From: Norana najaformis | Lineage: Eukaryota; Annelida; Clitellata; Crassiclitellata; Hormogastridae | Reading direction: 5' to 3' | DNA: 64,000 nt | NCBI GenBank assembly: GCA_964023275.1 | Contig: OZ029928.1 | Span: 16,227,182 to 16,291,181, forward strand | Shown here: piece by piece, positions 14,601-51,412 of the stretch | How positions within the stretch are numbered: the stretch's first letter is position 1 | Layout of the letters: the number at the start of each line of letters is the position of its first letter | The notes under the pieces: model-generated | What the model was told of the DNA's origin: nothing | Database searches by the model: none | Seen by the model: only the letters and a program-made list of their open reading frames with translations | Program-made: the position numbers and the translations under genes

Positions 14601-17600
14601 CTTGTACCACAACAGTGTTGGGTTCCAGAGCTTTCTCGGTTGCTGGTCCATGGCTTTGGAATTCATTGCTTCCCTCGTTGCCTGGCTTCTGGTTTCTCTG
14701 ATCTATCGGAATTCGACCCAGCGTCTCCAGTGGTATATGATTTTTGACTGCGATTTTTGACTGAAGTGACCATCGATTGATGCCTTGAGCATTATGATAA
14801 CGGCACTATAGAAGTCTTTAGGTTAGATTAGAAGGATCTTTGGCTGAAACTTGCAAATATTACAACATCAGTCTTAAAATTGGTCAGCCTCTCCTTAGTG
14901 ATATAACTCATTTTCGTATGGTGCGTTAGGATTGAATCTCAAACTTGAAGTGACCATCGACTGACGCCTTGAGCATTATTATAATGGCTCTATAGAAGTC
15001 ATTAGAGTAGAACGTCATTCTGTAGTTCGCTAGACTTTGGTTGACAACACTAAGTTGTTGTGAATTCAGAGACTTCTGCATGCTATGCTGAAATGTTGAT
15101 GGTCTCAGGAATTCTTGAACCTTTTGCCAGGGTTTGGGTTCTTAGTGGATGTATCTATGAGTAAATTTATATTAAACTCTTCATTGCTTTTTTCTTACTT
15201 ACAGTCTATCTTGTCACTTTCGTTGTATGCTTGTGTGTCTGTGTGTGTGCCCAATTATTTTGTCAGTTTTTGTATCTCTGATTTATCTGGGTCTTCAGGT
15301 TTTTGACAGTTGATTCCGTTTGCTGTTGTGGCTAATTTGTTCCTGATAGCAGTTATCTGTGTTTGTTAGCAGTTAATTGTTCTGCTGTTTTCCAGCTGGA
15401 CAGAACGTATACTGGGCTTCAGACAATGGGAGCGGAAACGGTAAGTTAGAGTTCATTAGTAAACTAGACATTCTTCCTCTTTCCATTTTCTCTCTTTCTG
15501 CTTCAATTACTAACACTGTCCACCATAGCCATCCGACTGTCTGCCTGCTTGACTCTTGGATCTTGACCTGGAACCAAACCCTTCCTGCCCATTGATTTTG
15601 TTTTGACTGGGCATAAACTAGTTCTTGCAAATTAGCTTTCATTGGGCACTGTAGAAATCTTGAATTTATGATTGTGATTAATCAGTTTATTTCTGTATTA
15701 GTACAAAATCGTTTTTATTTAATAATGCAGAAATGCTTAAAGAATACCTAAAGATGTGCAGCTGTGATTATGCGCTCTTTTCCAGATGAATTGCTAATCA
15801 AATTGCTGCCTGCAAATTACCAGTTTTGCAGGAATGAACTTGGAATCAATTGTTTTATTATTTTTATTATTATTTGTACGTTTATTAAACACCACGGTCC
15901 AATTATTGATTGATGGCACTAAGTGAATAACTTGCTTAAGGTCCCTAAACAGTAAATGTCTCAGGGGAGACTCAAACTCATACTCTCAGCATTACAAGTC
16001 GAGCGCTCGAACCAATTGGCCACTGTGCCCCAATTTGCAGAGGTATTTCACTAAGCCATGCAGTAAGTTTTTTTCTGAATTGATGTTCATCAATTTCTTA
16101 ACCAGATGTTGAACTGGCGGGGAGCATCTTCGAGAAGCATTGTATTTAACATCGTTTAGACTAGCATAGTGAGTTCCTTTGAATAATTTCGCTTGAAACA
16201 GCGCTGTGTAACTTTCTAATTGCAATTCACAAATTACAGTTACTATCGAGGTGCTGTGTAAGCATGTAGTTACATTATGTTACTGTGAAAAATTCTGTTG
16301 CAAATGTTTAGGTGGTTGAGATCAAACTTGATAAAGAAATTGCTCATTCGCTGAGTCGTGTCTTGCACGACTCGTGTGACAGTCCTCCAAGACACGAGGC
16401 GGAGACAACTCAGCAGTTGCTGCAGCTACAGATCAAGGAAGAAAACAGTGGCGATGGTTACGAGGATGTGGCACCAAATGAACTGGGGCCAGAATCTAGA
16501 GATGCACAGCATGAGTTAGCCGCAAGTTCTCTAGCTGTCTGCTGTCCAGCTGTGTCCTGCACTCAGCAGCCAGAGATGACAAATGCAAATCAATCTGTTG
16601 GCAAAGACTCTAGCGATAGTGCGACGTATGGGGGAGGTTTTCAGCATTCCCGTGTGTGTTCAGGTGTTGGTTTGGAAATGGAGACGATACCCGTTAAGTC
16701 AAGGACGTCTGCTGGATCAGATCAGCCACTACCAACTGGGTTGTCCTTGCGGTGTGAAAGCAGAATGGATTGTGAACGAAAATCCGGCTCGAGTAGTTTT
16801 CGAATGGAAAGTGAGACTCGTGAGTTTGCAGGTTTTTCAATGACTCCAGCCTGCAGTCCATCTGGTATCAGTGTTGGCACGGTACCAGAGGAGAGTTGCA
16901 ACGTATCTTTGGAAGCCGAAGACTGTGATAATGTCCAAGAAGAAGTTGTGGTTGGTGATGCGGTCAGCACGGAACCAGCTTCATTTGATAATGTTTCCAT
17001 GGAACCAGAAAGTTGTGATAACATCCTTGAAGAAACACTGACTGGCAGTAATATTTGCTTCGAACTAGAGAATTCGTTCGTAAAATCAGAAGTCTGTGAT
17101 AGCATGCTGGACGGCAGAATTGATATGGAACATGACAGCCTCTGTGTAGAAATGGAAGTGTGTGAAAATGTGCATGAGGAAGTAGTGATTGGTGATACAG
17201 TTTGTGTGGAGCCAGTCTCGAGTGATGACGTGTGTGTAGTACTGGATCAGTCTGGTAAAACTCAAAACGACAGTGAACCAGCGTCCTGCGATGTCGTCTA
17301 TAGGGAACCAGATGGTTTTGTTAGAGACTGCATGGAAACAGATCCCTCTGGTGATGGTACCAACCAAGAGCTGACAGCGTGTGATGATTTGTTGGACGTG
17401 GAACCAGATGCTGTGGTCGTTAATTGCACAGAACCAGTCTTGAACATGGAACCAGATGCTGTGGTCGTTAATTGCACAGAACCAGTCTTGAACATGGAAC
17501 CAGATGCTGTGGTCGTTAATTGCACAGAACGCGTCTTGAACATGAAACCAGATGCTGTGGTCGTTAATTGCACAGAACCAGTCTTGAACATGGAACCAGA

Positions 17601-20600
17601 TGCTGTGGTCGTTAATTGCACAGAACCAGTCTTGAACGTGGAACCAGATGCAAGTACAATCAGTGTATGCTCTATATCGGAAGCCAAAAAAGTGGTATCA
17701 GCAGCTGAAGGCACGGCACGGATCAAGGTAGACGAGGAACAAGATTTCATCAGGTGCATCGACGCTTCAGGCAGAATTTTTCGGATTCCGCGCCATCTAC
17801 TGCAGTTGAGCTCTGCAGCAAAAACAAATGCTACAATTCAGGTTAGTCCCATGGTTCAGGCAAATATAGCGACAAATGCCTCAAACGCGATAAGTGCCGC
17901 AAAAAAAATAAACAGCACAGTGCACGTTGGTACACGAGAACACCAGGTGGAATTGCCCCAAATGAGCGCAGCTTTAACACTGCGCCAAACTATTGCCGCT
18001 AGCCCAATAAGTGCAACGAATAATCGTTTTCAGAATACGACGGTAAACAGGGTAACCGTGAACTCTCTGGGGTTACAGAATGCGGTTAATGTAGCAACGA
18101 AAGCAGTCGGTGTCTTACGTAGAGGAGTCGAATCAGAGGGCGTTTTGGGCGCAGCAGCCATCGTTGGACCTGAAACTAGCAAGGTTCAAGACGTTATTAG
18201 AGCAGAATCAGGTGACTCCATTGTTGACGTCCCATGCACTTATTTCGGTTCTTTGCCTACCGCAAACTCTGTTATTTCGCCGGCCCAACGGAAAAGTGAA
18301 ACCAAGGTGGTGACGTTGATGACACTAGGTGGCGTTAAAAGCGTTACTCCTTCTGGTGTTTGCGTTTCTACTCGGATTCAGCCGACACGACTGGGATCTG
18401 ATTTGTCCAGTGTGAGAATGACGGCCGTTCAGAGTGATCGGCCAAAAACAGTTCTTGTGCAATCGATTGGTTTGAGCCCTAAGCAGCCAAAGGTCTTCCT
18501 TGGTGAGGTGAGACCAACGAATTTGGTAAGGACAAGCGGTGGTGGAACAGTCACGTTTTTTGCAACGAAGCGACTAAGAGGAGTGGCACCCACTTCCTCT
18601 GTGCCGTGCGTTCGAGTTCTACCACCACGAGTTTCTACTTGTATTGCAGCTTCACCTGTATTGCCATCCCCAGGTGGGTCAATCACACGACTGCTGCCTT
18701 CCCAGGTCAGTCCAATTGTGAGGTCACTACCTTCCCAGGTCAGTACGGTTGTGAGGCCAGTGTGTCCCCAGGTCAGTACAATTGTGAGGTCAGTGCGTCC
18801 CCAGGTCAGTCCAGGTGTGAAGTCACTGCCTTCCCAGATCAATCCAGTTCAGCATTCCATGCCCCAAAATTGTTCTGCATCTCAGCCAAAAGTCGACTCA
18901 AAACCTTTCTTCGTGCTTGTGCCTTCAGAGGGGAAGGGTCGTCAGGTTTTGGTCGCCCCGAATTGCCCTCGGCCATCTGTTCGCCATGTGTTGTTTGTGC
19001 CGAAAGGCACCAAAATTAACTCTTCCGGTCAGAATTTTACATCACAGCTGAAGACGAAGAATTTGGCAGGCATTCGACCGGTTAAAGTAGTTTCGGGAGT
19101 TTCAGGAAACCGGGACGCTGCCCTCACATCAGTATCAGCACCCGTGGATGTTCGACTGGCTGCTGAACACAACGGCAGGGCGAAGGCAGTTTCTATCCTT
19201 CGACCTCCAGCACCTCCAAGCTCCTCCCTGACGAGTCTTCTGAAAAAGAATCTCTCTGTTCAACCTGCAGTTTCAGTTTCTCTCGCTCACACTGAAGGTC
19301 CACATCTTGAGGCAGTGACATCCAATAACATCACTTCAAGCGCCAAATCTTCCACTGGAGGATCTGTCGCGCCTCCTTGTCCTTCTGGTCTTGCCCGCCG
19401 CACCGAAACCCTTCTGACAACACAGATTGGCAATCAGACTGTCATAGTTAAACTTGATCGGAGCGAAAACGCCGACCAAGAGCAGACGAAGCAGAATGCA
19501 GAATTAAAACCGAACGGTCCGTGCCTATCGACACCGTCTGTCACGACTCGGGAAGATCGAGTCCCATTTGTCCGGCCAAAAGAGAAACACCTCATGTTCA
19601 AGTCGGTACGCGAGTCTTCCCAGAAAAAGCCCGCGGAAGATGTCACTGCGAACATCAAGTGAGTGAAGATCAAGAAATTAGCATGATACAAATATCTGAT
19701 TGATAACAATGACATACGCCAGATCTTGATGATTTATAGCTGTCCCAGAAATTTTTCATTCTGCAGCGAATTTTTCAAATCCTGAGGAATCATGTATACC
19801 TTGGGTAAAAGAAAAATAATAATAGTAGGTATTAGTACTATGTAAATTGAATTTATAAATAATCAGATCTGTAAACTTTCTTGGCGTTTCTTGTCCCAGA
19901 ATTGAATGGATAGGGTAACACTAAGCTGACCTAATAAATTTGCTCAGAGGGTCTCCTTCTTTTCCTCATGGGTATTTTTGTTTGTGCCTTTTCCAGCCTT
20001 CAGGATCTGGAGAGCATGGAGGACCTGGTGAGGTCGCTTGCCAAGCATTACCCGGTCTACGGAGGCAATGTTGGTAAGGCATTCATTTTTCAATTGCCTC
20101 CTTATTTTCGTCTTGCTATGATTTGATTTGTGCTTTTTTCGTTCTGTCTGTCTTCTGTCTTTCTCGATATGTCTGTATGTGTCTGTGGCTCTGTCTGTGT
20201 GTCTTTATCTGTGCCAGTATCTGTTTAGCCTCTCATTTGTCATTAGGTACATACCAAGGGCCCAGCGAGGAGTCCTGCATTAAGGGGTGCTATATGAATG
20301 TGTAGTTACGATTACGATCGTTGTGCACTCATACTAGTGCATCGTCAAACTAAGAACTCTTCGAATTTTAAACTATTAATGCCCTGCTTGCTCTTTGTCG
20401 ATTTTCTCCGTGGTTCTTAACAGACCGGAAACTCTTCTTAATGCTGTCATTATCAGCCATTTCAAATACCATATTATATAGCAAAGCTCTTTTTTAATGT
20501 TCAAAGACAGCTTCTAAAGTTCTTGGATCTGACCACGTTCTTTCGGCATTCGCATTGTAACGTTTGTTATAATTCAATCTTGTCTTATGATTTCTGTTGA

Positions 20601-33036: not shown

Positions 33037-36000
33037 TCACTTGACGTTCGGACGAACCTTCTGCAACTTCTCCAGGCGTTTCTGTAGATGGCCATTTTCC
33101 AGCTCAAGCTCTTGCTTCTGAGACTGGACCTCTCGTAGCTGGAAAAGATCAAGACTGACTCAACCAACCACGTCAGAGCTTTAATACTGACTCAGTCAAT
33201 CAGTTTAGAGCATTACTACACTCTCAGCCAATCAATTCAGAGCATTAATACAGACTCAAGCAATCAATTCAGATCATCAATACACTCTCAGCCACTCAAT
33301 TCAGACCATGATACAGACTTGGCCAACCAATTCAGAGCATTAATACAGACTCAGCCAATCAATTCAGAGCATTAATACAAACTCAGCCAATCAATTCAAA
33401 CCATTATACAGATTCAGCCAATCAATTCAACAACAATACACTCAGCCAATCAATTCAGAGCATTAATACAGACTGAGCCAACCATTTCAGACCATGATAC
33501 ACACTCAACCAACCGATTCAGACTATTAACAGTTTTAACAGATTAATCAACACGAACAAATGAACACGAAGCTCTCAAGCTACTATTGTTTTAGGGAAAA
33601 ACCAACTTTAAGAGAAGAACAGACTTGCTTCATGGATAATCAAATGAAAAAGTAGCAAAGCTTTTTATTCTTAACTGCATACGTACCTCTTTCTGAAATC
33701 TTCGTTTTTCCATTTTCAGCTCTTCCTCGACTTTCTCCGCATTATCTGCAGCCATTTTGAATCTCTTTACCTGGCTCTCTAATCGAATTACCTGAAAAAT
33801 CCACCAAAAAATATAGTTATTCGTGCTAGCTACATCACTGACCTACTGACCTAACAACTATATGCGTCAGGTCAGCATGAGCTCCTTACATGTAAGGAGA
33901 AAACATCCACATGATTGAAATCAAAACAATCAAAACTGCCTTTAATGACTAAAACAAAAATTAATTAAAATGCCATCAATGGCAATTAATAATTAATAAG
34001 AAATGAATGGTGCAACCATGGATAATGAGGTTTTACAAAGGAGCTACATAAATCGCTATATAAAAATTGTATACAAAAGCAAACAAGTGTGCATTCAACT
34101 CAAACAATATACACATAGAACGTTCCTTTGAATCACTTACTATGTGAGGTTCTAAAAAGCAGCTACATAAATATCTGTTTACATTGCATTACAGACTTTA
34201 AAGTGCAGATGAAAAACCGAATGAGAACAGCGTACATTTCCTTCGAGCGTCGTAATGTCTTGTTCGGCCCGTTTTAACTTGAACTTGTAGTCGTTAATCT
34301 GTCGTTGCAAATCAGCTACAAATCAAAACCACTGAGTAAACATTCCATCTTAGCAGAACGCTGTTTACATATGCATTTCTGCAAATAAGTAAGATATTCC
34401 CACTTATTCCCAAATATGTAAGGTATTGCTAATGGAATATGACCAGCTTCTCCAGTGGTTCATGATTTATGACTGCAGTTTGACTCAAAGCGACCATCGA
34501 CTGTTGTCTTGGGCATTATGATGACGGCGCTTAAGAAATCTTTAGATTAGATTAGATTAGGCTGCAGCAGAAATGCAGTATCACTAGGATAATAAGTATG
34601 TCAGTATGACAACACCGTCTGCTGTCCAGCGTGGGTCTTCCTATAAACATTCGTTCTATTTCTGTTAATTTGGCTCAAGAAACATTCTCTTTGTTAGTTA
34701 AGGCTCGCTTGTTATGATTCACTGGGCAGCCATCATCACAGCACTTTGAGAGGTTCTTAAAATGCGCTATATAAAAGACTAGATACACACAATTGCTCAT
34801 CCAGCAAGAGAAAACAGAAACAAGACTGATGATGATGATACCTTGGACGTCGAGCACCTGAGGCTCAGTTGGGCCGTTGGACAGGGTGTTTGGCGTTGGG
34901 CTGTGCGACTTGTACTTATCAACAACTGATCGCCGTTCGCGCTCATCCTCCAAATCCTGTTTTAACTTCCGAACCTACAGACAGATACAGACCAGAGTCC
35001 AAAATGTACCTCTGTTGAGTTTATTCTCTAAGCGGCGCTTTACAAATCTTAAATTACAATTACGATTACAACACAGATCAGATGGCACCTCACATAGGTT
35101 TCCTTCCAGCTGATGTCCACAGGCTCACTGAGTGTTGGCGTCGATTGCATGCCTCCATTTGTTTAATAATAATAATAATAATAAGACAATTTATATAGCG
35201 CCGTAGCACAGCCGAGGCCGAAGAAAAGGGCGCTGTACAAGGGTTCAAAAATCAACTGCAGTCATAAGATATCCTAAAAAGATGTGTCTTGAGTCGTGAC
35301 TTGAATGTGTCCAGCGATGGGGCATTCGTCACATTCTCAGGAAGACTGTTCCACGCAGTGGGTCCGGTTTGACTACCCAGGTTTTATCCATAAGATGCAT
35401 GTCATCGTCATCATCATCAACATCATCATCTTCTTCTTCTTGCCTTTTATGCTTAATACGTTTCAAAAAATTAGTCCTGTACTTAGCCAGACTACCAGCA
35501 TTTACACTAAACAATTTCGCATTCTCACATTCAGGCCAAGTCAAACCAGTAGATATTCACACCATCCACCTGCTGAGCTAAAAGAATATTTGACGTGTAA
35601 GTACCTCTTTTTCTAGCACTTTCTTCTCTTCGGCAATCTTCCGCAGCCTTTCATCTGAACATTTACACTCGTAATCAGCAATTTTAAAGCCACCAATTCA
35701 CAGTAAATTGCATTAATGCAAATGAAATCATCCACAATACGGATTCGTTAAAAAATGAAATTTTCAGTGAAACCCACCTCACTCAGTAAATGCTTTTAAG
35801 TTGTTACATGAACAGCATGTGAAACACTATAGTGTACTATACATGTTAAACACTATACTGTACTACACATACTAAACACTATACTATACTATACAAGCTA
35901 ACCACTAAACCACACAACCCAGATAAATCGCCTACAAGCTATCCAGAATGCTCTCGCACGTGCTGTCACCAAAACCCCCAAACACCATCACATCACCCCT

Positions 36001-39000
36001 GTTCTCAAATCACTGCACTGGCTTAAATTACCAGAACGAATAGAGTACAAAGTCTTATCCCTCACCTACAACACACTTCAATCCTCCCAACCCTCCTATC
36101 TTCGTCAATTATTTACTATCCAACCATTCCGTTCAACCCGCTCCTCATCTGTCCTAACACTTCTTCGCCCTCCCGTCACCTCATCCTTAAAATTTGGAAA
36201 TCGCTCGATAGCCATAGCTGCCCAACCCCTTTGGAATAAACTCCCGCCAGAATTGCGACAGTTGTCTGGTCAATCATACGAACTCACCAACATTTCACCT
36301 CTTTCAGTTTCTGCGCAGGTCTTTCACTCAAGACTGAAAACACTTCTTTTCCAGAAATCTTATCCTGATTCTTCCTCTTCCCCTCATCTCTCTTCTCGCT
36401 TCAATTTCAAACATCATCCACCGTAGCCGTCCGACTGTCTGAGTGCCTGACTCCTGGATCTTGACCCTTTTGCCTATCGATTTTGTTTTGACTGAGCGCC
36501 TGTGAATAAGCTGGTTTCCGCAACTTAGCTTTCGTTGAGCGCTGTAGAAATCTCGAGATTACGATTACGATAAACTGTACTATACATGTCAAACACTATA
36601 CTGTACTATACATGTCAAACACTATACTGTACTATACATGTCAAACACTATACTGTACTATACAGGCTAAACACTAAACTGTACTATACATGTCAAACAC
36701 TATACTGTACTATACATGTCAAACACTATACTGTACTATACATGTCAAACACTATACTGTACTATACAGGCTAAACACTAAACTGTACTATACATGTCAA
36801 ACACTATACTGTACTATACATGTCAAACACTATACTGTACTATAATGTATACATGCTAAACACTAAACTATTAACCACCACAGAGCAAATTACACTTGTA
36901 GGGGAGCACAGTGTCTTATTTGTTGGAGTATTGGCTTTGAATTAATAAAGAAAATTGATCTAAATTATTACCGAGCGACCCAGAATACGATTCCAGGACA
37001 GCTATAGACTCGGCTGACAGAAGAGCAGCGTTCGTCGTGCTCGCTGGCAGCTGCAGCGGCTTCCTTTCTGACAGAGGAGCATCTGTCGTGTCTTCCATCA
37101 TTTCATCCGTTACAAACACCAAGCCGTGCTCCTGTACGTCACAACAATCACCAAGATCAATTTAATGGTCTATTTAATTTATTACATAATATTAATTCAA
37201 ATTATTTAAAGGTATTCTTAGTACAGTAATAATTATAGTAATAATGAAAATAATGAAAATAATGGTAACAGAAAATTCTACTATACTATTGCAGAATTCA
37301 GGGTTGTTAAACATCTGAAGTTCATAGAAAATAAAATTAAATATATTAAATAAAATTAATATTACACAATTTAAGATCTTTCCAACAATCAACACAATCA
37401 ATTTAACACCCATTAACATCATTCTGATCAAACTTACAGAGCATCCCATTGGAACATGATGACACAAATCTAATCTAATCTAATCTAATCCAATCCAATC
37501 TAATCTAATCCAATCTAATCTAATCCAATCTAATCCAATCTAATCTAATCCAATCTAATCCAATCTAATCCAATCTAATCTAAAGACTTCTATAGCGCCG
37601 TTATCATTACGCCCAAGGCAACAGTTGGATGCATACATTTATATGCTTAAGTGTTATTATATCATTCAGACAAATGAAGCAGATTAAGCACATTTTTCAA
37701 CCTGTATGAGAGCATCTCTTTGCTGTAGCTGTTCTGAAAGGACGTTAAATTTCTGTTCTAAGTCTGTGAAATCGCGCTTCTTAAACTCCAGCTCCTAAAA
37801 GCCATTCAAATTCCAACTTTAAACTTCCACAGCAAGAATAATAATAATAATCAACTACTAGTAACACATAATACTAACTCATACAAATAAAAATAATAAT
37901 CGTGCCATACACTACGACAATGGGAAATTGTTTTAAATCCTGAGGCATCCTTTCTTCCGTGTCTGAAAGTTTTGCACTTTTGCATGGCAGAAGTTGATGG
38001 CACAAAGCCATTCAAGACAATAGTTTCTTCTGACATTATTATTAACTCCAGAGGGATCATTTCTACTTCAGGTAAAGAAATAACAAAAACACAGTAACAT
38101 TGTCTAACTGCAATCAACACAAGAAATCCCATCTTTTGCAGCACCTTTCAATTTGCACACAACATTACAAAACCGTTGCATTCAGCGGGGATGATCGCCA
38201 TTAGTTCCACACACCCTTCTTGCTCCTGCAATGATTTTTGTTCTGAGGGATCATACGTACCCTCAGTAAGAACAATAATGTTGGTAATAAAAAGCATCCC
38301 AATCCCACAAGGAAGACACAGAGGAGACGCTCATTTCTTTTTCTGCACGCCCTTGAGCCAGCAATGAACGAATCCCAAGATCCAGGACACGGGGCCAATG
38401 CATCGCAGGACCAGCCGTTTACATCCTAGTTTATGCCGGTACCAAATTCTCCTGCTTGGTGACAGAGGCACGGTGTGCACAAACAACTTGCCCACGAGTC
38501 ATTACACGGAGTCAAACTCACGATCTCATGATCTTTAACCAAACGCATTACCAAAAGATCGTAATCATAATTCCGAGATTTCTACAGTGCCTAGTATGGT
38601 CCATGCATGGGGACCTTATATGGCGTGGTGTCCATTCAAACAGGCAGCGGTGGTGAAGGATCTCACCCGATTAATTCATTGCAAAATATGCAGAGTCAAG
38701 GCCATACGGTCGCTACAGAAAACGTCTACATTTACATTTACTCCACGCCACGGGGACCAGCTTATTCACAGGCGCTCAGTCAAAATAAAATCGATAGGCA
38801 AAAGGGTTCGGTTCCAAAAGATCCAAAAGTATGCCGCACAAAAGTAGTAATAATAATAAAATAATCCAAGGACTTCTACAGTCGGACTAGACGTAGCAGA
38901 GATTCTGAAGGCGTTGTTTTGAAAAAAGAGGTAGAAGACAATACCCGAGCTCGGTCCTTGAGTTCTCGCTGGGTTTCGACGAACTCTTCTTCCATCTCTT

Positions 39001-39115
39001 CCACCTTGTCCTTCAGAAGGTCCACCTGGTAACGAAGGACCTGTTTTTCATTGTCCAGCTGTGCATTGGTCATCATGGACTTCTTGTACTTCTCCTCCAG
39101 TTCTGATAACTCCTT
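33037..39115 (-). CDS. LRRFIP2: LRRFIP exons 5-12: long coiled coil
   Basis: Eight exons carry the continuous heptad-rich part from [12 protein letters not shown] to the C-terminus [20 protein letters not shown] and TGA. Exon 7 (37131-36972) is the least conserved, with a Ser/Thr/Ala-rich insert in place of the LRRFIP2 EHGLVIIPDG-like segment, of which [10 protein letters not shown] remains. Joins match vertebrate sequence without gap, for example exon 10-11 [14 protein letters not shown] against TTLEQSISRLEGQV. The last exon is only 34 codons. The C-terminal region is the part reported to bind the Flightless-1 repeats. Confidence 0.9.
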
Positions 39116-42100
39116 CTGCAAACCAGAAACAGACAAACCTCTAATCACAACTCCATTGCGCAGGACCCTCGTTAGAAGTACCCTCATTCTAACATGTGTG
39201 TAAGTGTAAACGTAAATGTACATGTTTTCTATAGCAACCGTACGCCTCAACCCGGCTCATTTTTCAGTGAATGTCTACGTAGTTTAAGGTATCTACAGTA
39301 CCCAGTAGTCATTCAGACAACCCCGCGAGCTGAGCTACAAATGTGTTACGTTAAATCATCAAAAACATGCTTCATTCCAACATATGTACACTGACTTCCT
39401 AACAGTAACCAATCATGCAAACTCAGTCACAACTTAATGCAGACTTGTCTCATTTCCCAGTTTATCCTCAAATGACCCACAGAACCATGACCCATCATCC
39501 TTAATGTGTAAAGTAACAAAACATAATGTAACACATCTAGGAATTTATATAACACCACTTGATCGTAACTTTTCAGCAGTGCCCCAACCTTACAGCCCTA
39601 AACTTAGAATACCAATCTTTTAATAACCATTCACAGTATTATACTGTATTTATTAATATTAATTTAATATATATAATATATTACACTTATTAATATTATT
39701 TTAATAAATAATATTATAGTGTATTACATGCTAAACAATTACATAATTAGCTTATTCCAGGACAAGACCTTTAATGTTATCACACGACTTGTAAACTGGC
39801 ATTCCACTTACAGAAAGAGTTAGCAACTTTTACTACACGCAACGTACCAATTAATGTAAAGTACCAGTTAATGTAACGGTAACGTACACATACCCGTAAA
39901 TCTCGAGTGTCGTCCGTGGAAGCATCGCTACCGCGTCGCGAGCTGTTTGTGCTCGAACCATAGCGTGATGTCTGATAAAATAAGGATACAGTATCCGATG
40001 AGATCCAGTATCACGTAACACACCACGACGTAAAGAGACTTCAGTAAAAGCTAACTAGCCGCTCTATATATTTTGTGACCTGGTTTTGGTCTGCACTGTT
40101 TAATTAATCACCACACACCAGGAAATTCATTTTCATCAATCCCTAGCTCATTTGAATCTCGCGCTAGTATGGTCCATGCACGGGGACCTTATATGTTCAA
40201 ACGGGCAGTGGTGGTGAAGGATCTCACCCGATTAATTCATTGCAAAATAAGCAAAGTCAAGGCCACACGGTCGCTACAGAAAAGTCTACATTTACATTTA
40301 CTCCGATTTGGCTACCTAAAGTAGGTCATAGATACTCCAAATGGCATTGGCACCCATTCAAATGGGCAGCGGTGGTGAAGGATCTCACCCGATTAATTAT
40401 TTGAGCAGGGTCGGGGCCATACGATTGCTACAGAAAAATGTGTATATTTACATTTACATTATCACATGTATTTATCACATGTATCACATCACGTGTATCA
40501 CATTTATGTTATCATCAGTGCACATTTATATACAGCCTGTACAGCTCAAGAGCACACGATCAACTAAAATGTTCTTCAAACGGCTGGGAAAACAGAGCCA
40601 GAGAAACACAAGAAGCTCAAGTCTCGGGTTGCATGGCTGTCTGTTGCAGATAAAGAGGCAGACCACAGCAAAGTAGCTGCACTCGTGATGCACAGTCAGC
40701 CTATTTTAAGCACAAATGCAATAAGTAAGTAGGCAGTGCATTTTTTAACATGCCATATGTCCATTGGCTGAGCGAGGAATCTTTCATCTGAACATTTACA
40801 CTCGTAATTAGCAATTTTAAAGCCACCAAATCACATTAAATTGCACAAACAGATTCATTCAAAAATGAAATTTCCAGCAAAACCTCGCTCGATAATGGTT
40901 TTATGCAGACAGACGAACAGCATCTTAAATACTATGTGTAATATGTTTATTTAAATCTTGTCATCAAATAATAATACAGGGCACAATACCGGGAGGACGG
41001 AAAAGAGGAAGACCGAGAATAAACTGGTTGGGCAACATCAGGGCATGGACTGGGCTAACAATGGAGGAGATGCTCAGGCTGGTGGAGGACAGAAGACACT
41101 GGAGGAACATTGTGCATGATGCGGCCGAATCTCGGAACGAGGAAGGCTGAGAATGGAAATGGAATGGAAAAATCAAATAATTACAACTTTTAAGACAGCA
41201 ATATGACTTTAATGCATATAACATGTAGGTTTAACTCAGAGGGATGTTTTACACGATAACAGACAGTAACTTCAGACACATCTCTTCCAATTTGCTTACC
41301 AACTGTAGCCTAGCTTCTGGTTTCTCTGAACCATTGGAATTTGACTGGTTTCTCCAACGGTTTATGATTTTTGACTGCAATTTTGACTTGATGTGACCAT
41401 CGACTGAGATGCAGGCATTATGATAATGTCATTATAGAAGTCTTAAGATTAGATTAGATTAGATTAGATTAGACAGTAGCACTGCACATCCTAACGTCAC
41501 TGTAGAAGTCTTAAGATTAGATTAGATTAGATTACAGAGTAGCTCAGCATATCCTTATCAATGAACATTAAGTTTCTTCCAAGTTAGCAAATATACGAAA
41601 ATGTGATTTTCTTAGTGGTCAAAAGAGATATTTAGATCAATACAAAAGTTATTGTTAATTGTTACGAACTAATTAGTATTAATTACTAAACAAGACTCAC
41701 TGAGAAATCTCGTTTCACGTCATTTAGTCGGTCCTCTTTCTCGTCCTGCTGTACACAATCAAACAATCCATTATCAGAAAAACACAGAACATAAATTTCT
41801 GTTTTTCAATAATCTTTCAGAAACTTTCTCATCAACCATCTGTAAATGCCGAAAGTCCAATCCATTCTGCCTCAAACTACCTTCACAGGAAGTCTTAGCC
41901 TGTCCCAAGGGAGGATAAAGGAGGAGGGTTCTGCGGTGGGCTTGCAACCCACCCAGGTAAAACAACTTTAGCAACAGAAACAAAGCAATGGAAACAACAA
42001 AAGACTTAAAAGATAATGTAACAATGAGTATAATTTTTAATTTATTTCATTATTACTCATTAAACTATTAGCATGAGGAGAATGGCTATCACCTTGCCTA

Positions 42101-45100
42101 CATAGCATAGCACAGCCTAGCATATGGAGAACGGCTAACGTCTTGCCTACGTAGCATAGCATAGCATGCGGAGAATGGCTAACGTCTTGCCTACATAGCC
42201 TAGCATAGCCTAGCATATGGAGAATGGCTAATGTCTTGCCTACATAGCATAGCAAAGCATGCGGAGAATGGCCATCATCCTGCCTACATAGCATAGCATA
42301 GCATGAGGAGAGTGGCTAACATCTTACCTACATAGCATAGCATGATGAAAATGGCTAACATCTTGCCTACATAGCATAGCATGAGGAAAATGGCTAACAT
42401 CTTGCCTACATAGCATAGCATAGCACGAGGAAAACAGCCATCATCTTGCCTACGTAGCATAGCACAGAATATGGAGAATGGCTAACACCTTGCCTACATA
42501 TCATAGCACAGCATGAGGAGAACGGCTAACATCTTGCCTACATAGCATAGCACAAGGAGAATGGCTAAGATCATGCCTACATAGCACACCATATCATAAG
42601 AATGGCTAACATCTTGCCCACATAGCATAGCATGAGGAGAATGGCTAACCCCTTGCCTACATAGCACAGCATATCATAAGAATGGCTAACATCTTGCCCA
42701 CATAGCATAGCATAGCATGAGGAGAATGGCTAACATCTTGCCTAATAGGATAGCACATAGAGAATGGCTAACATCATGCCTACATAGCACAGCATAAGAA
42801 TGGCTAACATCCTGCCCACATAGCATAGCATAGCATGAGGAGAATGGCTAACATCTTGCCTACATAGCACAGCATATCATAAGAATGGCTAACATCTTGC
42901 CCACATAGCACAGCATAGCATGAGGAGAATGGCTAACATCATGCCTATATAGCACAGATTATTATAAGAATGGCTAACATCTTGCCCACATAGCATAGCA
43001 TAGCATGAGGAGAATGGCTAACATCTTGCCTACATAGCACAACATATCATAAGAATGGCTAACACCTTGCCTACATATCATAGCACAGCATGAGGAGAAC
43101 GGCTAACATCTTGCCTAATAGCATAGCACATGGAGAATGGCTAACATCATGCCTACAAAGCACAGCATAAGAATGGCTAACATCTTTCCCACATAGCATA
43201 GCATAGCATGAGGAGAATGGCTAACATCATGCCTATATAGCACAGCATATCATAAGAATGGCTAACATCTTGCCCACATAGCATAGCATGAGGAGAATGG
43301 CTAACATCATGCTTACATAGCACAGCATATCATAAGAATGGCTAACATCTTGCCCACAAGGCATAGCATAGCACATAGAGAATGGCTAACATCATGCCTA
43401 CTTAGCACAGCATAGCCTGCGGAAAACAGCTGACCTCTCTTTGCTGACGTTCGAGTTCCCTTGATCGGATCTCTCGTGCTTCTGCACGTGCCGCCCTGCG
43501 AGCTACAAGACGCGATTCGGCCTAACAACCAACAGAAACAAAAAGTTGTCAGAACACATCTTTCATGGCAGCATTTACAAGCAAGTCCTGCGATGCACTG
43601 GCCCCGTGTCCAGGACCTTGGGATTCGTCCATTGCCAGCTCAAGGGCCAAGAAGAGGAAATGAGTGCCTCCTCTACGTCTCACTTGCGTGATATGGGATA
43701 CTTCACTTTATTTAAGCTGGGAAGTAAATGGCAAGTCCTGCGATGCACTGGCCCCGTGTCCAGGACCTTGGGATTCGTCCATTGCCGGTTCAAGGGCCTA
43801 AGAAAAGGAAATGAGCGCTTCCTCTACTTCCCATTTGTGTGATGTGGTATACTTTACTTTACTTTACAGGCCACCATAAATAGCAGTAATAATAATAAGT
43901 CATAAATAATATTAGTAATAAAACTGATAATAGAAATAAAGTTAATACAAGTAATAAAATTAATACAAGTAATAAAATAATAATCGTAATAAAATAATAT
44001 TAGTAATAAAATTAATAACCGTAATAAAATTAATAACCGTAATAAAATTAATAACAGTAATAAAATAGTAAGTGAGATTAACGAACTACGACACTAATTA
44101 ACAAGACGCTAATTAATAAAAACACAATGTCACTGAGGAACTCACCAAAACAACCCCTTATCTGACCCAGACAGTCACAGAATGTCAATTTAAGCCATGA
44201 TCAACACAGTTTATCTGTGTAGACCCACACACTAGATAAGCCGTCTCGAATGACTACGAATAAAAATGTCCCATAAAACTTCTTCAAGTCTACCCGTTAT
44301 CTCCCCAATTCAGTCATTCGCTAGAAGAAAGCTTTTAATGCGAAGTTTCTGTCTGGCTCCTTCGTTCAGCTGCAGTACCCACGGTGATTAGAGTGATAGA
44401 CTACCGACTCGAGAAGTCGTGGCTTGGCTTTTAGACAGGAAAGAAATGACTTTCAACAGTTTAGTTCCTCCTAAACAAACTCAGACTTAGAATCATATTT
44501 ATTTCTTGGTTGCAGCTGCTTTAAGGTAACAACAACAACAACAGCAATAACAACAACAACAGCAACAATCAAAACAGCAGCAGCAGCAACAACAACAACA
44601 GCAATAACAGCAACAACAACAACAGCAACAGCAACAACCAAAATAGCAGCAGCAGCAGCAACAACAGCAACAGCAACAACCAAAACAACAGCAGCAGCAA
44701 CAACAACAGCAATAACAGCAACAGCAATAACAACAACAAAAGCGGCAGCAACAACAACAGCAACAGCAATAACAGCAACAGCAGCAACAAAAGCATCAGC
44801 AACAACAACAACCACAACAACATCAACAGCAACAACAACAGCAGCAACACCATGTCCCATGCATAGCACTATAAGGTAAATACAGCAATGCAACAACAAC
44901 AACAACAACAATAACATACGGTTATTCACTACGTTGAAGTGCACTCCTATGATTCCTCACTCAGCTGATGGACATATGGAAAAATGAAAAAGTTCTCACT
45001 TAGTTACACATGACAATTGTATTTCTCATAAATTAGTTATTTTTCACTTATGTTTACAGTGCAGATACTTGACAGCTGCACACCACGTGGCTGCAGTCAG

Positions 45101-48233: not shown

Positions 48234-51200
48234 AAGAATGATGGTGATGATGATGATTATGTGGATGATGACGTTGATGATGATAGTGGTGGTGACGATT
48301 AAGATGACGATGATTAAGATAAAGATGATGATGAATATCAATATGATGTTGATGATGATGATGATGATGACGAAGACGACGACGATGATGATGCTAACGA
48401 TGATGCTGATGATGGTGCTGCTGCTGATGATGATTACAATGAAGATTATGTATGCAATGTAACATTAAAGATTTACCGAGCATCATAAGCTACTTCTAAT
48501 GTGTTTAGCATCAACAGCTGCCAGACTGATTGGTAAAAGAGTCAAGCAATAAACACGAGAATATAAACTTGTCAAACAATCCGGAAAATCAGCCAACAAA
48601 GAAACTCTTCATAACTCAACGTAAGGACATGTTGAACTTCAGATTAAAACCGTTGTTTATCAATATGCCACTCTGTTACCAACAGACACTGATGTGGCTA
48701 TAACAGCATAAATTGTCTGGCAATGAGGGGTAGTGTTGCCAACAGAAAGATCGTTAGTATAGTCTCCACAGAGTTAGTTTGGTCTGTATAGTGTTAGGGT
48801 CATCTCCATAGTGTTAGGGTCATCTCCATAGTGTTAGGGTCATCTCCATAGTGTTAGGGTCATCTCCATAGTGTTACTATGGTCTCCACAGTACACTGGA
48901 ACCTCCTAACAAGTAATACTTAATGACTTAACGTGATGTTAACGAAATACTTAATGACTTAATATGATCTTAATGACATTTTTAACATCACTGCGGATTG
49001 CGTAGAGAGAGAGCTACTGAGTTGTTTCTTCTTTAAGTGGTGCTATATAAATGTGTGGTTACAATTACAGTTACAACAATGCTATATGTGGATGCCATAT
49101 TACATACTATGTCATAAATAAAGACATTTTCTAAAGCTGAATTAAATTTTTTGATCCACGTCTCCAACCACATTAAATCAAAATCTGCATAAAAAGAAAG
49201 GTGTTATGTGACGGTTCTGGTGTGATTACGACAAAATGCTCTGATGGCAGGCAACAGTAACTAGGAGGGCATCAAGGAGTGTCTGGCAAAAGTAGACACA
49301 CCAGCTGTCAGCGTGGCTCTTCATGGTGGCCAAATCTGTCTGATAGTAAGCCTCAGTGCTGCTACCAAACATCAAATCATACTGCATTACGAAAACGGCA
49401 ATGTGGTAGGCATCAGACAGGGTTACACTAGATTAGAAAGAACAGTAGTATCTGATCACCAGATAATTATGTCAGTGGGTGTTCTGGCCACATAAGTATC
49501 TAATTCAACCATGTATTACTAGTACCCGTGCAGTATGTTCGTTGTTTTGAAGAATTTGACATCACCACCAAAGACCAAAGATATGCGTCCAAAATGCCGG
49601 CACCAGACTTCAACAAACAGCCAGATATCACATTACACAAGGCTTCCCAGAAACTATAAATAGCTTGGATTTACCCTCTGACCTCAATATACGTCACAGG
49701 TCCCGACGGCAAACTATATTCAGCTATTAACTACCCATCGACTGATTATTTAACAGGAAAACTCGCTTCAAGGGAAACGTTTTTTAACCGTTTGCACTGC
49801 AATATCTGACATCAGTCACTTACTCTCACGAAGGCACACAATCTGTAATGCATACACAAAAGTTGTGTCTGGCACAGCAGACACTACTTTGGTCAGAACA
49901 TTCAGACACTAACTGCCTAGTCAATGTAACAGCAGATATTACGCTTTCAAAGTAAAGTCTGCAAGAAAGACCTGCAGAATATTGTAAATTGTTTGGATTG
50001 CAACAACTTGCATCATCTTGTATCAGCCACAACTGTAATACGTACAGCACACACTACACAAGTTGTGTCTAGAACATCAGACACCAGTGTGACTTAATTC
50101 CAAAAGCCACAGAAACTGTAACAACAGATACTGCACTTTAAAAATGTCTAGTCACAGCACACACTACAAAAGTAGTGTCCTGAACATCAGACACCAGCGT
50201 GACTTAATTCCACAAAGCCACAGAAACCGTAAGAGCAGATACTGCACTTTAAAAACTGTCCAGTCACAGCACACACTACACAAAAAGTGTCTAGAACATC
50301 AAACACCAGTGTGACTTAATTCCACAAAGCCACAGAAACTGTAACAGCAGATACTGCACTTTAAAAAAGTCTGGTCACAGCACACACTAGTGTGGCTAAA
50401 ACCTACAGCCACACAATTTGCCTCACTACAGTAAAAGGTCACTTCACTGATCAACTGTGTAAACCACACAGAAATCTACAGGTCAATATGCAAGATTAGT
50501 ACACCAGACACTCAACATAATGCAGTTTCTTGACAGTCACATCAACCAGCACTTACAAAGGTAAACAACAGGTCTTTGAAACAGCATGGAACAGTCTTCC
50601 TGACCACACGAAGAATGCACCATCTCTAGACACTAACTCAAGACTTACCTATTTAAAATATCATACGACATACGACTGTCACTGATTTTTGAACTCATGT
50701 ACACCACTCAATTTTTCGGTCTTGGTGGTGCTACGGAGCTACATAAATTGTCTTATTGCTATATGAAGTTTGTCTGATAAGTTAGCATATTGCATCTTCG
50801 TTTCTTTTCATGACTACGTCAGACTATTAAGTTATGAAAAAACTCTGACCTAGTATCATTTGAGTATTCAAACAACTTCCACTTTTAGTTCACCAAACCT
50901 CTTAAGCAGTTTTGCAACACATAACCTACCTACTTTGCCTTACTACTTAGGTCTTAGGTAGCATCGCAACATGTAACTTACCTCTTTGCAACCTGACTAC
51001 ATGTACTTAGCTCTTCGGTAGCATCGAAATTTGTAACTTACCTCTTTCGCAACCCGACAACTTAGCTCTTAAGTAGCATAGCAACTCGTAACTGACCTCT
51101 TTTGCAACCTGACAACTTAGCTCTTAAGTAGCATAGCAACTCGTAACTTACCTCTTTTGCAACCTGACAACTTAGCTCTTAAGTAGCATAGCAACTCGTA

Positions 51201-51412
51201 ACTTACCTCTTTCGCAACCTGACAACTTAGCTCTTCGGTAGCATCGAAATTTGTAACTTAACTCTTTCGCAACCTGACAACTTATCTCCTAAGTAGCATA
51301 GCAACTCGTAACTGACCTCTTTTGCAACCTGACTCAGGGCTTGGTCCTCAGCCGAGCTTTGGCGCAACGTCGTACGTTTTCTACTGGCACTGTAGTCGGC
51401 CGGCGATGCCAT
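33037..51412 (-). CDS. LRRFIP2: LRRFIP1/2 orthologue, Flightless-1-interacting protein (12 exons)
   Basis: LRRFIP proteins are cytoplasmic coiled-coil adaptors that bind the leucine-rich repeats of Flightless-1 and modulate actin, Wnt/Dishevelled and innate signalling in vertebrates. Minus-strand coding exons: 51412-51317, 43521-43435, 41745-41701 (or from 41748), 39971-39894, 39115-38945, 37794-37702, 37131-36972, 35654-35605, 34974-34842, 34315-34236, 33791-33687, 33138-33037. The sum is 1200 nt, or 399 residues (400 with the alternative Gln), which agrees with short LRRFIP2 isoforms. Diagnostic segments are [73 protein letters not shown] and [18 protein letters not shown]. The protein is almost entirely coiled coil. 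Whether it is closer to LRRFIP1 or LRRFIP2 is not decidable here. Confidence 0.93.
33148..33535. repeat. minisatellite (about 33 bp) beside last LRRFIP acceptor
   Basis: Eleven or so imperfect units of GACTCAGCCAATCAATTCAG plus AGCATTAATACA begin about 10 bases beyond the acceptor AG (33139-33140) of exon 12, occupying the usual polypyrimidine/branch zone. Confidence 0.85.
34450..34562 (+). mobile_element. LINE family B 3' end
   Basis: TTCTCCAGTGGTTCATGATT, GACCATCGACTGTTG and a TTAGATTAGATTAGATTAG tail. Confidence 0.75.
34995..35075 (+). mobile_element. LINE family C 3' end
   Basis: ACCTCTGTTGAGTTTATTCT, CTAAGCGGCGCTTTACAAAT and an ATTACAATTACGATTACA tail. Confidence 0.7.
35165..35375 (-). 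mobile_element. LINE family D copy with reverse-transcriptase end, minus strand
   Basis: An AATAATAATAAT tail in complement is followed by ATTTATATAGCGCCGTAGCA. The complement then encodes [19 protein letters not shown] and [17 protein letters not shown], a CR1-like reverse-transcriptase C-terminus. The same 3' end without its tail complement occurs at 54150-54245, 46436-46470 and 62915-63015. Confidence 0.82.
35825..36870. repeat. 26-bp minisatellite interrupted by a LINE
   Basis: Units of ACTATACTGTACTATACATG plus TCAAAC occur at 35825-35910 and again at 36575-36870. The intervening 660 bases are a family A LINE end. Right-hand units are almost identical and left-hand units more diverged. 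Confidence 0.88.
35911..36571 (+). mobile_element. LINE family A, longest copy, open reverse-transcriptase end
   Basis: A frame open from 35920 to TAG at 36424-36426 (168 codons, no internal stop) reads [56 protein letters not shown] and [20 protein letters not shown]. This is the C-terminal part of a CR1/L2-type reverse transcriptase. The family A 3' UTR and an ATTACGATTACGATAAA end follow. It identifies all the short family A pieces as LINE 3' ends. No apurinic endonuclease or catalytic reverse-transcriptase motif is included. Confidence 0.88.
37465..37628 (-). mobile_element. LINE family B 3' end with expanded tail
   Basis: About 110 bases of (AATCT/AATCC)n form an expanded tail, followed by AAAGACTTCTATAGCGCCGT and CCCAAGGCAACAGTTGG. 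Confidence 0.8.
38290..38556 (-). mobile_element. tRNA-derived SINE-1, minus strand
   Basis: The complement of TGGGATTCGTTCATTGCTGG and of the SINE-1 head, ending ACCAAACGCATTACCAAAAGATC. Confidence 0.78.
38557..38865. mobile_element. LINE family A (minus) split by family E (plus)
   Basis: 38558-38592 is the start of a minus-oriented family A end (GATCGTAATCATAATTCCGA). 38593-38748 is family E in + orientation (GTCCATGCATGGGGACCTTA to a TTTACATTTAC tail). 38750-38830 resumes family A (GCCACGGGGACCAGCTTATT). The joined family A parts are contiguous with other copies, so family E inserted into it and is younger here. Confidence 0.8.
39195..39300 (-). mobile_element. family E 3' end, minus strand
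   Basis: AAACGTAAATGTACATG, then CTATAGCAACCGTACGCC and CATTTTTCAGTGAATGT. Confidence 0.6.
40165..40470 (+). mobile_element. two family E copies in a row
   Basis: 40165-40305 and 40340-40465 both contain GGCAGTGGTGGTGAAGGATC (GGCAGCGGTGG in the second), CTCACCCGATTAATT and a TTTACATTTACA tail. Confidence 0.78.
40745..40940 (-). repeat. duplicated LRRFIP exon 8 acceptor segment in intron 3
   Basis: 40785-40935 resembles 35646-35825 (CTTTCATCTGAACATTTACA, ATTTTAAAGCCACCAA, AAAAATGAAATTT, ATGAACAGCAT in the parent). The parent contains the acceptor of exon 8 (TTCAG/ATGAAAG on the minus strand), so this copy carries a second intact acceptor-like site. It abuts a dispersed motif (TTAACATGCCATATGTCC) that also occurs at 11130-11165. 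Confidence 0.75.
40977..41150 (+). mobile_element. LINE reverse-transcriptase C-terminal fragment
   Basis: The + frame reads [40 protein letters not shown] and [16 protein letters not shown] before TGA at about 41148. This is the RTE-like terminal motif. No tail was recognised. Confidence 0.75.
41300..41535 (+). mobile_element. LINE family B 3' end, tail duplicated
   Basis: GGTTTCTCTGAACCATTGG, TTTTTGACTGCAATTTTGAC and TATAGAAGTCTTAAGATTAG, with a GATTA tail. About 75 bases later GTAGAAGTCTTAAGATTAG and the tail occur again. Confidence 0.78.
42060..43425. repeat. 1.4-kb minisatellite in LRRFIP intron 2
   Basis: More than 25 units of about 45-60 bp are built from AGAATGGCTAACATCTTGCC, TACATAGCATAGCATAGCAT and GAGG. 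Some variants (ATATCATAAGAATGGC) recur at intervals, giving a higher-order pattern. Its right end, GCGGAAAACAGCTGAC, runs into the exon 2 donor at 43433-43434. A similar GAGGAAAACAGCCATC lies inside the array at 42427. Confidence 0.92.
43570..43870 (+). mobile_element. SINE-1, two partial copies in tandem
   Basis: CAAGTCCTGCGATGCACTGG and GGATTCGTCCATTGCC occur at 43577 and again at 43731. Each is followed by a GATATGGGATACTTCACTT/GATGTGGTATACTTTACTT tail. The tRNA-like heads are missing. Confidence 0.8.
43880..44075. repeat. AT-rich AATAAAATTAATAA tract
   Basis: Short, irregular repeats of GTAATAAAATTAATAAC. Confidence 0.7.
44500..44925. repeat. CAA/CAG trinucleotide array
   Basis: About 400 bases of interrupted CAA, CAG and ATAACAG triplets. 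It is read as poly-Leu or poly-Val on the minus strand and is not a gene. Confidence 0.92.
45290..45505. repeat. TGTCTGCC/TCTG tract
   Basis: Imperfect TCTGTGTCTGCCTGCCTATG repeats followed by CTGT units. Confidence 0.85.
45750..45815 (+). mobile_element. SINE-1 tail fragment
   Basis: AATGAGCGCCTCCCCTACAT and TGTGGGATATGGGATACTTT. Confidence 0.65.
46130..46265. repeat. dispersed repeat shared with 48720-48960
   Basis: GAGGGGTAGTGTTGCC, ACAG and TGGAACCTCCTTACA are shared in order with the copy at 48725-48960. Family unknown, with a faint resemblance to Tigger ends. Confidence 0.55.
46436..46605 (+). mobile_element. LINE family D end plus ATT/CAG microsatellites
   Basis: AGCGCCCTTTTTGGCCTCGG, CTCTATAAATCATCATC, then (CAG)n, (CAC)n and (ATT)n. 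Confidence 0.6.
46663..46677 (+). repeat. 15-base G homopolymer
   Basis: An uninterrupted run of 15 G. Runs of this length are rare and are often mis-sized in sequencing. Confidence 0.85.
46780..47100 (+). CDS. coding-like open frame, possible exon
   Basis: A + frame opens with ATG at 46780 and runs to 47154. It has compositionally varied residues such as [18 protein letters not shown], a poly-Ser run from (CAG)n read as AGC (46848-46875) and [17 protein letters not shown]. The region is richer in CG than its surroundings. The last 50 bases belong to a LINE, so any real exon would end before about 47100. It lies inside LRRFIP intron 1 on the opposite strand. I do not recognise a family; this may be chance or a nested gene. 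Confidence 0.25.
47100..47262 (-). mobile_element. LINE family A 3' end, minus strand
   Basis: AATCGTAATTGTAATCGTAA, CGAGATTTCTACAGCGCCCA and AATCGATAGGCAAGAAGGG. Confidence 0.82.
47280..47365 (+). mobile_element. SINE-1 body fragment
   Basis: GAAGTCCTGCACTTGCCCCG then CATTGGGATTTCCACACTGC is a diverged SINE-1 body. Confidence 0.5.
47369..47527. mobile_element. hAT-type MITE with 8-bp target duplication
   Basis: A 159-bp element begins CAGTGGCGGAT and ends ATCCGCCACTG (11-bp perfect terminal inverted repeats). It is flanked by TGCCTTCC at 47361-47368 and TGCCTTCC at 47528-47535. The 8-bp duplication and CAGNGGCG ends fit the hAT superfamily. It is non-coding. Confidence 0.9.
47985..48445. 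repeat. GAT array with GAAAAGAATGATGGT higher-order unit
   Basis: About 460 bases of GAT triplets in which GATGAAAAGAATGATGGT recurs five times between 48030 and 48245. It is not a coding Met/Asp protein. Confidence 0.92.
48720..48965. repeat. dispersed repeat holding a 20-bp minisatellite
   Basis: This is the repeat shared with 46130, opened at 48780-48882 by five copies of GTGTTAGGGTCATCTCCATA. Confidence 0.75.
48985..49080 (+). mobile_element. LINE family C 3' end, diverged
   Basis: TTTAAGTGGTGCTATATAAA and a GTTACAATTACAGTTACAA tail. Confidence 0.55.
49840..50405. repeat. tandem repeat of about 115 bp in LRRFIP intron 1
   Basis: AGAACATCAGACACCAGTGT, GACTTAATTCCACAAAGCC and GCAGATACTGCACTTTAAAA recur about every 115-120 bases, with three good copies from 50060 and older ones before that. 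Confidence 0.82.
50570..50765 (+). mobile_element. diverged CR1-like LINE end
   Basis: A frame near 50574-50645 reads as [19 protein letters not shown]-like sequence, followed by GGTGGTGCTACGGAGCTAC and ATAAATTGTCTTATTGC. It is related to family D but old. Confidence 0.6.
50930..51335 (-). repeat. 55-60-bp minisatellite containing the exon 1 splice donor
   Basis: Seven units of 55-60 bp (minus-strand donors near 51316, 51261, 51206, 51151, 51096, 51041 and 50981). The minus-strand unit reads CAGGTTGCAAAAGAGGTAAG, then TTACGAGTTGCTATGCTAC. The unit nearest the coding part overlaps the last codons of LRRFIP exon 1 and its donor. At least five of the others keep AGAGGTAAGT or AGAGGTCAGT intact. 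Confidence 0.93.

Follow-up and report, generated by a model that had tools for sequence, protein, structure and literature searches.

In the annelid Norana najaformis, the 5' splice site of what is probably the first coding exon of a gene of the LRRFIP family lies within the first unit of a minisatellite whose tandem units each span the exon/intron boundary, and the array is probably a passive one, with the 5'-most donor used by virtue of its position. The window analysed here is a stretch of 64,000 nucleotides from contig OZ029928.1, and the gene is read from its minus strand. The anatomy of the array, the effects of its donors on the reading frame and the variants common to distant units are direct observations. 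The exon boundary itself was called from the frame-preserving join to a Pfam-supported LRRFIP exon, and a tandem unit across such a boundary is what distinguishes the repeats known as mirages. The features concerned are as follows.

51317..51412, minus strand: probable first coding exon of the LRRFIP-family gene, starting at the ATG 51412 (open frame closely preceded by an in-frame stop)
50944..51332, minus strand: minisatellite of 7 units, beginning 16 nt inside the exon (TRF and unit division)
43435..43521, minus strand: LRRFIP exon 2, acceptor TTGTTAG/G, donor GAG/GTCAGC at 43434 (Pfam PF09738, E=3.7e-11)

The array occupies 51332-50944 of the minus strand and comprises seven tandem units of 55, 55, 55, 55, 55, 61 and 53 bp; TRF placed it at 50938-51333, with a period of 55, 7.1 copies and 85% matches. 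The first unit consists of the last 16 nt of the coding exon, which are the 3' end of the open reading frame from the ATG, followed by the 5' splice site, and the other six units repeat both. A unit is made up of TC(A/G)GGTTGC(A/G)AAAGAG, which in unit 7 is one base short, the donor and about 33 bp resembling intron sequence. Since the unit starts 16 nt inside the exon, the letters coding for VAKE and the donor are carried in each copy. A GT donor is present in six of the seven units, that is, many but not all units keep the splice signal. When the 608-Mb assembly (608,420,607 bases) was searched with the array sequence, at least one match was obtained, from a single candidate, and this was the array itself.

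Joining exon 1 to exon 2 (43521-43435) keeps the frame. The exon 2 frame matched the Pfam LRRFIP profile from profile position 1, and the exon 4 frame (38876-39256) matched the same profile with E=7.1e-25. Exon 1 alone gave no Pfam family match, and its place in the gene is therefore supported by phase, by frame and by an apparent resemblance to vertebrate LRRFIP2 N-termini. A search of solved structures with exons 1 and 2 as the query returned no useful match (best E 0.08). Visual inspection of the minus strand gave five more LRRFIP exon ends, at 39893, 38944, 36971, 34841 and 33686; only the end at 38944 lies in a frame that passed the Pfam cut-off, the frame at 36971 fell under it (E=0.048), the frames at 34841 and 33686 had no match, and the exon ending at 39893 lay outside the Pfam scan. 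Two of the seven donors counted as LRRFIP's thus have Pfam support for their own frame. Upstream of the ATG on the minus strand there is a possible 3' splice site, TTTATAATTTCAG/G (TTTCAG/G, 51445/51444, 9 of 16 pyrimidines), so the annotated first coding exon may not be the first transcribed exon; these letters suggest a 5'UTR exon further upstream.

The donors of the individual units, and the stop codon that the later ones lead to, were assigned as listed here, with scores taken from a metazoan matrix and distances given relative to the first donor.

51311..51319, minus strand: unit 1, productive donor GAG/GTCAGT, score 8.1 (matrix and frame join)
51256..51264, minus strand: unit 2, dead donor GAG/TTAAGT, without GT, site 51261 (unit alignment)
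51201..51209, minus strand: unit 3, donor GAG/GTAAGT, score 11.8, +110 nt (matrix and frame join)
51146..51154, minus strand: unit 4, donor GAG/GTAAGT, score 11.8, +165 nt (matrix and frame join)
51091..51099, minus strand: unit 5, donor GAG/GTCAGT, score 8.1, +220 nt (matrix and frame join)
51036..51044, minus strand: unit 6, donor GAG/GTAAGT, score 11.8, +275 nt (matrix and frame join)
50976..50984, minus strand: unit 7, donor GAG/GTAAGT, score 11.8, +335 nt (matrix and frame join)
50924..50932, minus strand: decayed eighth remnant TAG/GTAGGT at 50929, score 8.6, +387 nt (matrix and frame join)
51227..51229, minus strand: in-frame stop, codon 62, reached through all six later donors tested (open reading frame and frame join)

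Exon 1-2 joins were made from each donor, and an open frame into exon 2 was obtained from donor 1 alone. The six later donors tested (five live and one remnant) all led to the stop at codon 62, which precedes the junction by 20 to 297 nt; the distances of +165 and +387, although multiples of three, end at the same stop. The +55 product is unavailable because the donor of unit 2 is dead. Donor 1 (8.1) scores below four of the five live downstream copies (11.8), and its computed pairing with U1 is -8.0 kcal/mol, compared with -12.1 kcal/mol for donors 3, 4, 6 and 7. Since donor 1 is the weaker one both in the matrix and in U1 pairing, strength alone would favour an unproductive donor. The C at +3 is also found in the LRRFIP exon 2 donor (GAG/GTCAGC), and donor 1 is third, nearly equal to the second, among the seven donors taken as LRRFIP's; donor 1 therefore need not be poor for this genome.

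These results partly agree with the initial annotation of this region, which had assigned the gene to LRRFIP, an assignment supported by the Pfam match of exon 2 together with the in-frame join of exon 1, and had placed the exon 1 end and its donor within the repeat unit, as was indeed found, the unit beginning 16 nt before the exon end. Its row of seven near-identical donors made by a minisatellite holds for the array but not for the count, since six of the seven units have a GT and unit 2 is dead. Likewise, it described an authentic donor followed by six copies, most with full consensus: four later copies do read GTAAGT, but the authentic donor is itself the weaker GTCAGT and one of the copies is dead. 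The predicted early stop from later donors was recovered in six of six tested, whereas the statement that a later donor would add 55 bases or multiples of it has to be corrected, because the first usable one adds 110 and the live ones add 110, 165, 220, 275 and 335.

Comparison of the units points to the way in which the array may have turned over. Units 3, 4 and 5 are 1-2 aligned columns apart and unit 1 differs from them by 2-4, whereas units 2, 6 and 7 differ from the rest by 7-18 columns (unit 7 from the others by 8-15). At the edge, unit 1 is close to units 3-5, while units 2 and 6, which lie in the interior, have diverged. The donor GTCAGT is common to units 1 and 5, a block ACAAATTTCG...CCGAAG is common to units 2 and 6, and the mean unit difference is lowest at a lag of four, a value that comes from three pairs only. 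The shared variants would fit the exchange of a four-unit (220 bp) block. If such an exchange occurred, the functional donor was part of the minisatellite turnover, and the same +3 letter in donors 1 and 5 suggests that a real splice site was drawn into it. Selection on the donors was not supported: 4 of 22 columns were variable in the exon and donor segment and 11 of 32 elsewhere in the unit (Fisher P=0.23), and 9 of 54 circular placements of this segment did equally well.

We then have to consider how readily an array would meet a splice site by chance. Arrays with a period of at least 15 make up 11.7% of the 64-kb window, and when 4000 minus-strand positions were drawn at random from the window, the array included, 2.4% had a self-match as strong as that of donor 1. 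Among the other donors taken as LRRFIP's, none of the six had a comparable self-match, with three of the positions set 1-2 bases off. By simple arithmetic, one array overlap among seven donors at 2.4% each has a chance of about 16%. In a sample of 53 sources from the same genome (266,592 bases), there were 61 arrays of at least three copies; three or more strong donors on a single strand were carried by 5 of them and three or more near-perfect ones by 2, the present array being included in both counts; donor-bearing arrays are thus not rare. Exon ends were surveyed at 50 loci, namely 30 of the at least 94 P450 matches listed and 20 of 22 globin matches, with ends picked automatically and approximately and a donor score above 4 required; many of the P450 loci look recently duplicated. 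This yielded 26 ends, the other 24 loci giving none, and a repeated donor with a self-match score of at least 30 was found at 0 of the 26, while in a flank control of 2000 positions 6.0% had a self-match of at least 30 and 3.4% of at least 40. Repeated donors as a genome-wide habit are therefore not supported by these automatically picked exon ends. Of the at least 94 P450 matches listed, for which 90 of 731 candidates were scored, 85 are on contigs C1 and C6, most of them in the form of one large exon.

Several other arrays were noted during this work. The same gene contains a second boundary-hugging array, a 44-bp minisatellite directly behind the exon 2 donor:

42069..43423, minus strand: second minisatellite, 44-bp unit, 1.35 kb, first base at +12 of intron 2 (TRF)

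The exon 2 donor was examined as a second mirage, which was not supported: the letters across the donor agreed with the repeat consensus at 6 of 13 positions (P=0.09) and with the best of 31 units at 7 of 13 (P=0.12), and the best local match of the exon 2 junction 20-mer was equalled by 29% of shuffles. On the plus strand of the window, a 33-bp tandem repeat at 18694-18849 lies in an open frame of 1116 aa (16312-19659) and has six sense donor-like sites scoring at least 8.1. At the locus L050, a pyrimidine-rich 42-bp array of 29 copies (296-1481) ends 24 nt before an apparent globin exon start, and its antisense strand has 62 donor-like sites scoring at least 8.1. At L052, a GTGA-rich array (1787-2055) with five strong sense donor-like sites lies 40 nt past a likely globin exon donor and is one of the five arrays with strong donors counted above; it had been flagged as lying at a donor, which was a wrong pick, the likely donor being 40 nt upstream. 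With it, a further intron of the genome would contain strong decoys.

The LRRFIP array belongs to an already known kind, and boundary-spanning minisatellites are not new, as judged from the lancelet mirages and from repeats in human F7, ABCA7 and CBS. In the available text of two reports, mirages of lancelets are minisatellite-like tandem duplications of exon/intron boundaries in Adh3, TnC (troponin C) and the globins BflGb6 and BflGb9, with mirage-like repeats in PGBD5; AG/GT is kept in many, but not all, units, the interior is homogenised with the edges excluded, haplotypes differ in length, and splicing is regular, as reported or inferred (PMC3087553, PMC3902484). In BflGb9 the 3' exon boundary is duplicated, on the same side as in LRRFIP, whereas in BflGb6 it is the intron/exon (acceptor) boundary, in units of 150-160 bp, compared with the donor side and about 55 bp here. 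The present case differs further, as far as these texts describe, in the gene concerned, in the host, every repeat called a mirage in these texts being from a lancelet, and in that the LRRFIP coding donor is unlike most of its copies, and weaker. A search of the present assembly for the GFP family gave no hit, but it also gave none in 14 of 14 controls. In intron 7 of human F7, according to the accessible sections of the paper, the authentic 5' splice site is in the first of several highly homologous 37-bp repeats, and the most upstream repeat donor alone is normally used (PMC6627357); the position in the first repeat is the same as in LRRFIP, but the unit is of a different length. The parts available of a penetrance review, PMC3778950, contained nothing on the F7 repeats. 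In intron 18 of human ABCA7, the first GT of a 25-bp VNTR is described, in the portion of the report at hand, as the exon 18 donor; the donor of the next unit shifts the frame, one-unit retention occurs independently of length, and longer VNTRs lead to more exon 19 skipping and lower expression (PMC5954066). That array starts at the GT itself and is polymorphic, with 23.7 reference units, while the LRRFIP array starts 16 nt inside the exon. The 31-bp VNTR of human CBS (c.1444_1467+7, 16-21 repeats; PMC2630376, available in part) spans, by its name only, an exon/intron boundary with 24 exonic and 7 intronic nt, like the LRRFIP unit. The same partial text describes a 68-bp duplication of the intron 7/exon 8 junction of CBS, in which the more distal site is reported to be strongly favoured (PMC2630376). 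The earlier view that concerted amplification of a splice site is unusual was consequently too strong: there is a named class in lancelets, the donors of human F7 and ABCA7 are repeated, and CBS can be added by name.

The following course of events would account for the array. An ancestral slip or unequal exchange would have duplicated about 55 bp across the exon 1/intron 1 boundary of the LRRFIP gene, and later exchanges would have lengthened the array and partly homogenised it, with the real exon joined to the first copy alone. The spliceosome would choose the 5'-most donor through exon definition and a 5'-first choice, and the intronic copies would be passive decoys that are spliced out within the 7.8-kb intron. 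That the 5'-most donor is used may be inferred from its being the only one at the end of a complete exon, in line with what the texts available report for F7 and for lancelet mirages. By analogy, the undisturbed splicing in lancelets, the upstream donor of F7 and the length-independent unit retention in ABCA7 would favour a reliable choice of the first donor. The same analogies also supply points against a passive array, since some ABCA7 transcripts use a downstream repeat donor and longer VNTRs go with more skipping of exon 19, and the CBS duplication indicates that the first copy may not always be the winner. Given the exon 19 skipping in ABCA7, array length may have an effect in some other way.

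The dilemma posed in the initial annotation, reliable choice of the first donor or tuning of LRRFIP output by copy number, is the right one. With tuning, a stronger downstream donor would lead to the codon 62 stop and to NMD, in a share of transcripts that grows with copy number. Four downstream donors do score above donor 1, the stop lies upstream of the exon 1-2 junction for every later donor tested, and retained units and length effects are described for ABCA7 in the available part of PMC5954066. In that report, however, the share of unit retention is constant across VNTR lengths, and the lancelet mirages are reported, in the text at hand, without aberrant mRNA (PMC3087553, PMC3902484); in the LRRFIP array conservation is not significantly higher at the donor letters than in the remainder of the unit, and one donor, that of unit 2, is already dead. 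We regard tuning by copy number as unlikely. That the donor copies serve as U1 decoys or enhancers, defining exon 1 or shielding the long intron from early polyadenylation, is very unlikely: the 335 nt downstream do contain five live copies, of which four are near-perfect, but one copy is dead, one is decayed and there is no sign of selection. Masking of donors by RNA structure was not supported, the array folding worse than 100 of 100 shuffles (z +2.9); in one local-fold calculation, too weak for use, the unpaired probability was 0.56 and 0.61 for donors 1 and 5 and 0.43, 0.36, 0.48 and 0.19 for donors 3, 4, 6 and 7.

Assemblies often misstate the copy number of tandem arrays. An artefact is nevertheless highly improbable here, because the units are 1-18 columns apart, the assembly has 17 contigs and the flanks on the two sides of the array are unlike, although the copy number may still be wrong. 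The array might instead record the birth of introns, each unit being a 12-nt micro-exon (VAKE) between an acceptor TTGTCAG and a donor GTAAGT, added in frame. Units 3-5 do read TCAG/GTTGC(A/G)AAAGAG/GT, 12 nt preserves the frame, and intron gain from mirages has been proposed in the accessible text of one of the lancelet reports (PMC3087553). The six repeat acceptors, however, have 6-7 pyrimidines in 16 positions compared with 11-12 of 16 in four LRRFIP acceptors (exons 2, 4, 6 and 7), a contrast unaffected by an offset of one base in the unit positions and of two bases in that of exon 4, and they are also below the 9 of 16 of the possible acceptor upstream of exon 1. The arrangement would require an intron of only 43 nt and an exon of 12 nt; unit 2 lacks a donor, unit 6 reads TCGG, and in unit 7 the exon would be 11 nt. 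Such an origin is scarcely credible, and the passive array with its donor chosen by position is the preferred explanation.

The sole productive donor of a conserved gene, with C at +3, is accompanied by four near-perfect copies within 335 nt, and the LRRFIP array is therefore a natural test of position against strength. There is some small chance that either of two consequences applies: position would outweigh a disadvantage of several bits in U1 complementarity, or LRRFIP transcripts would pass to NMD in a share that is heritable and dependent on copy number. If the NMD branch were true, unequal exchange in a minisatellite would set LRRFIP output. As most copies are stronger than the first donor, RNA-seq could tell position from strength in the choice of a 5' splice site in this animal.
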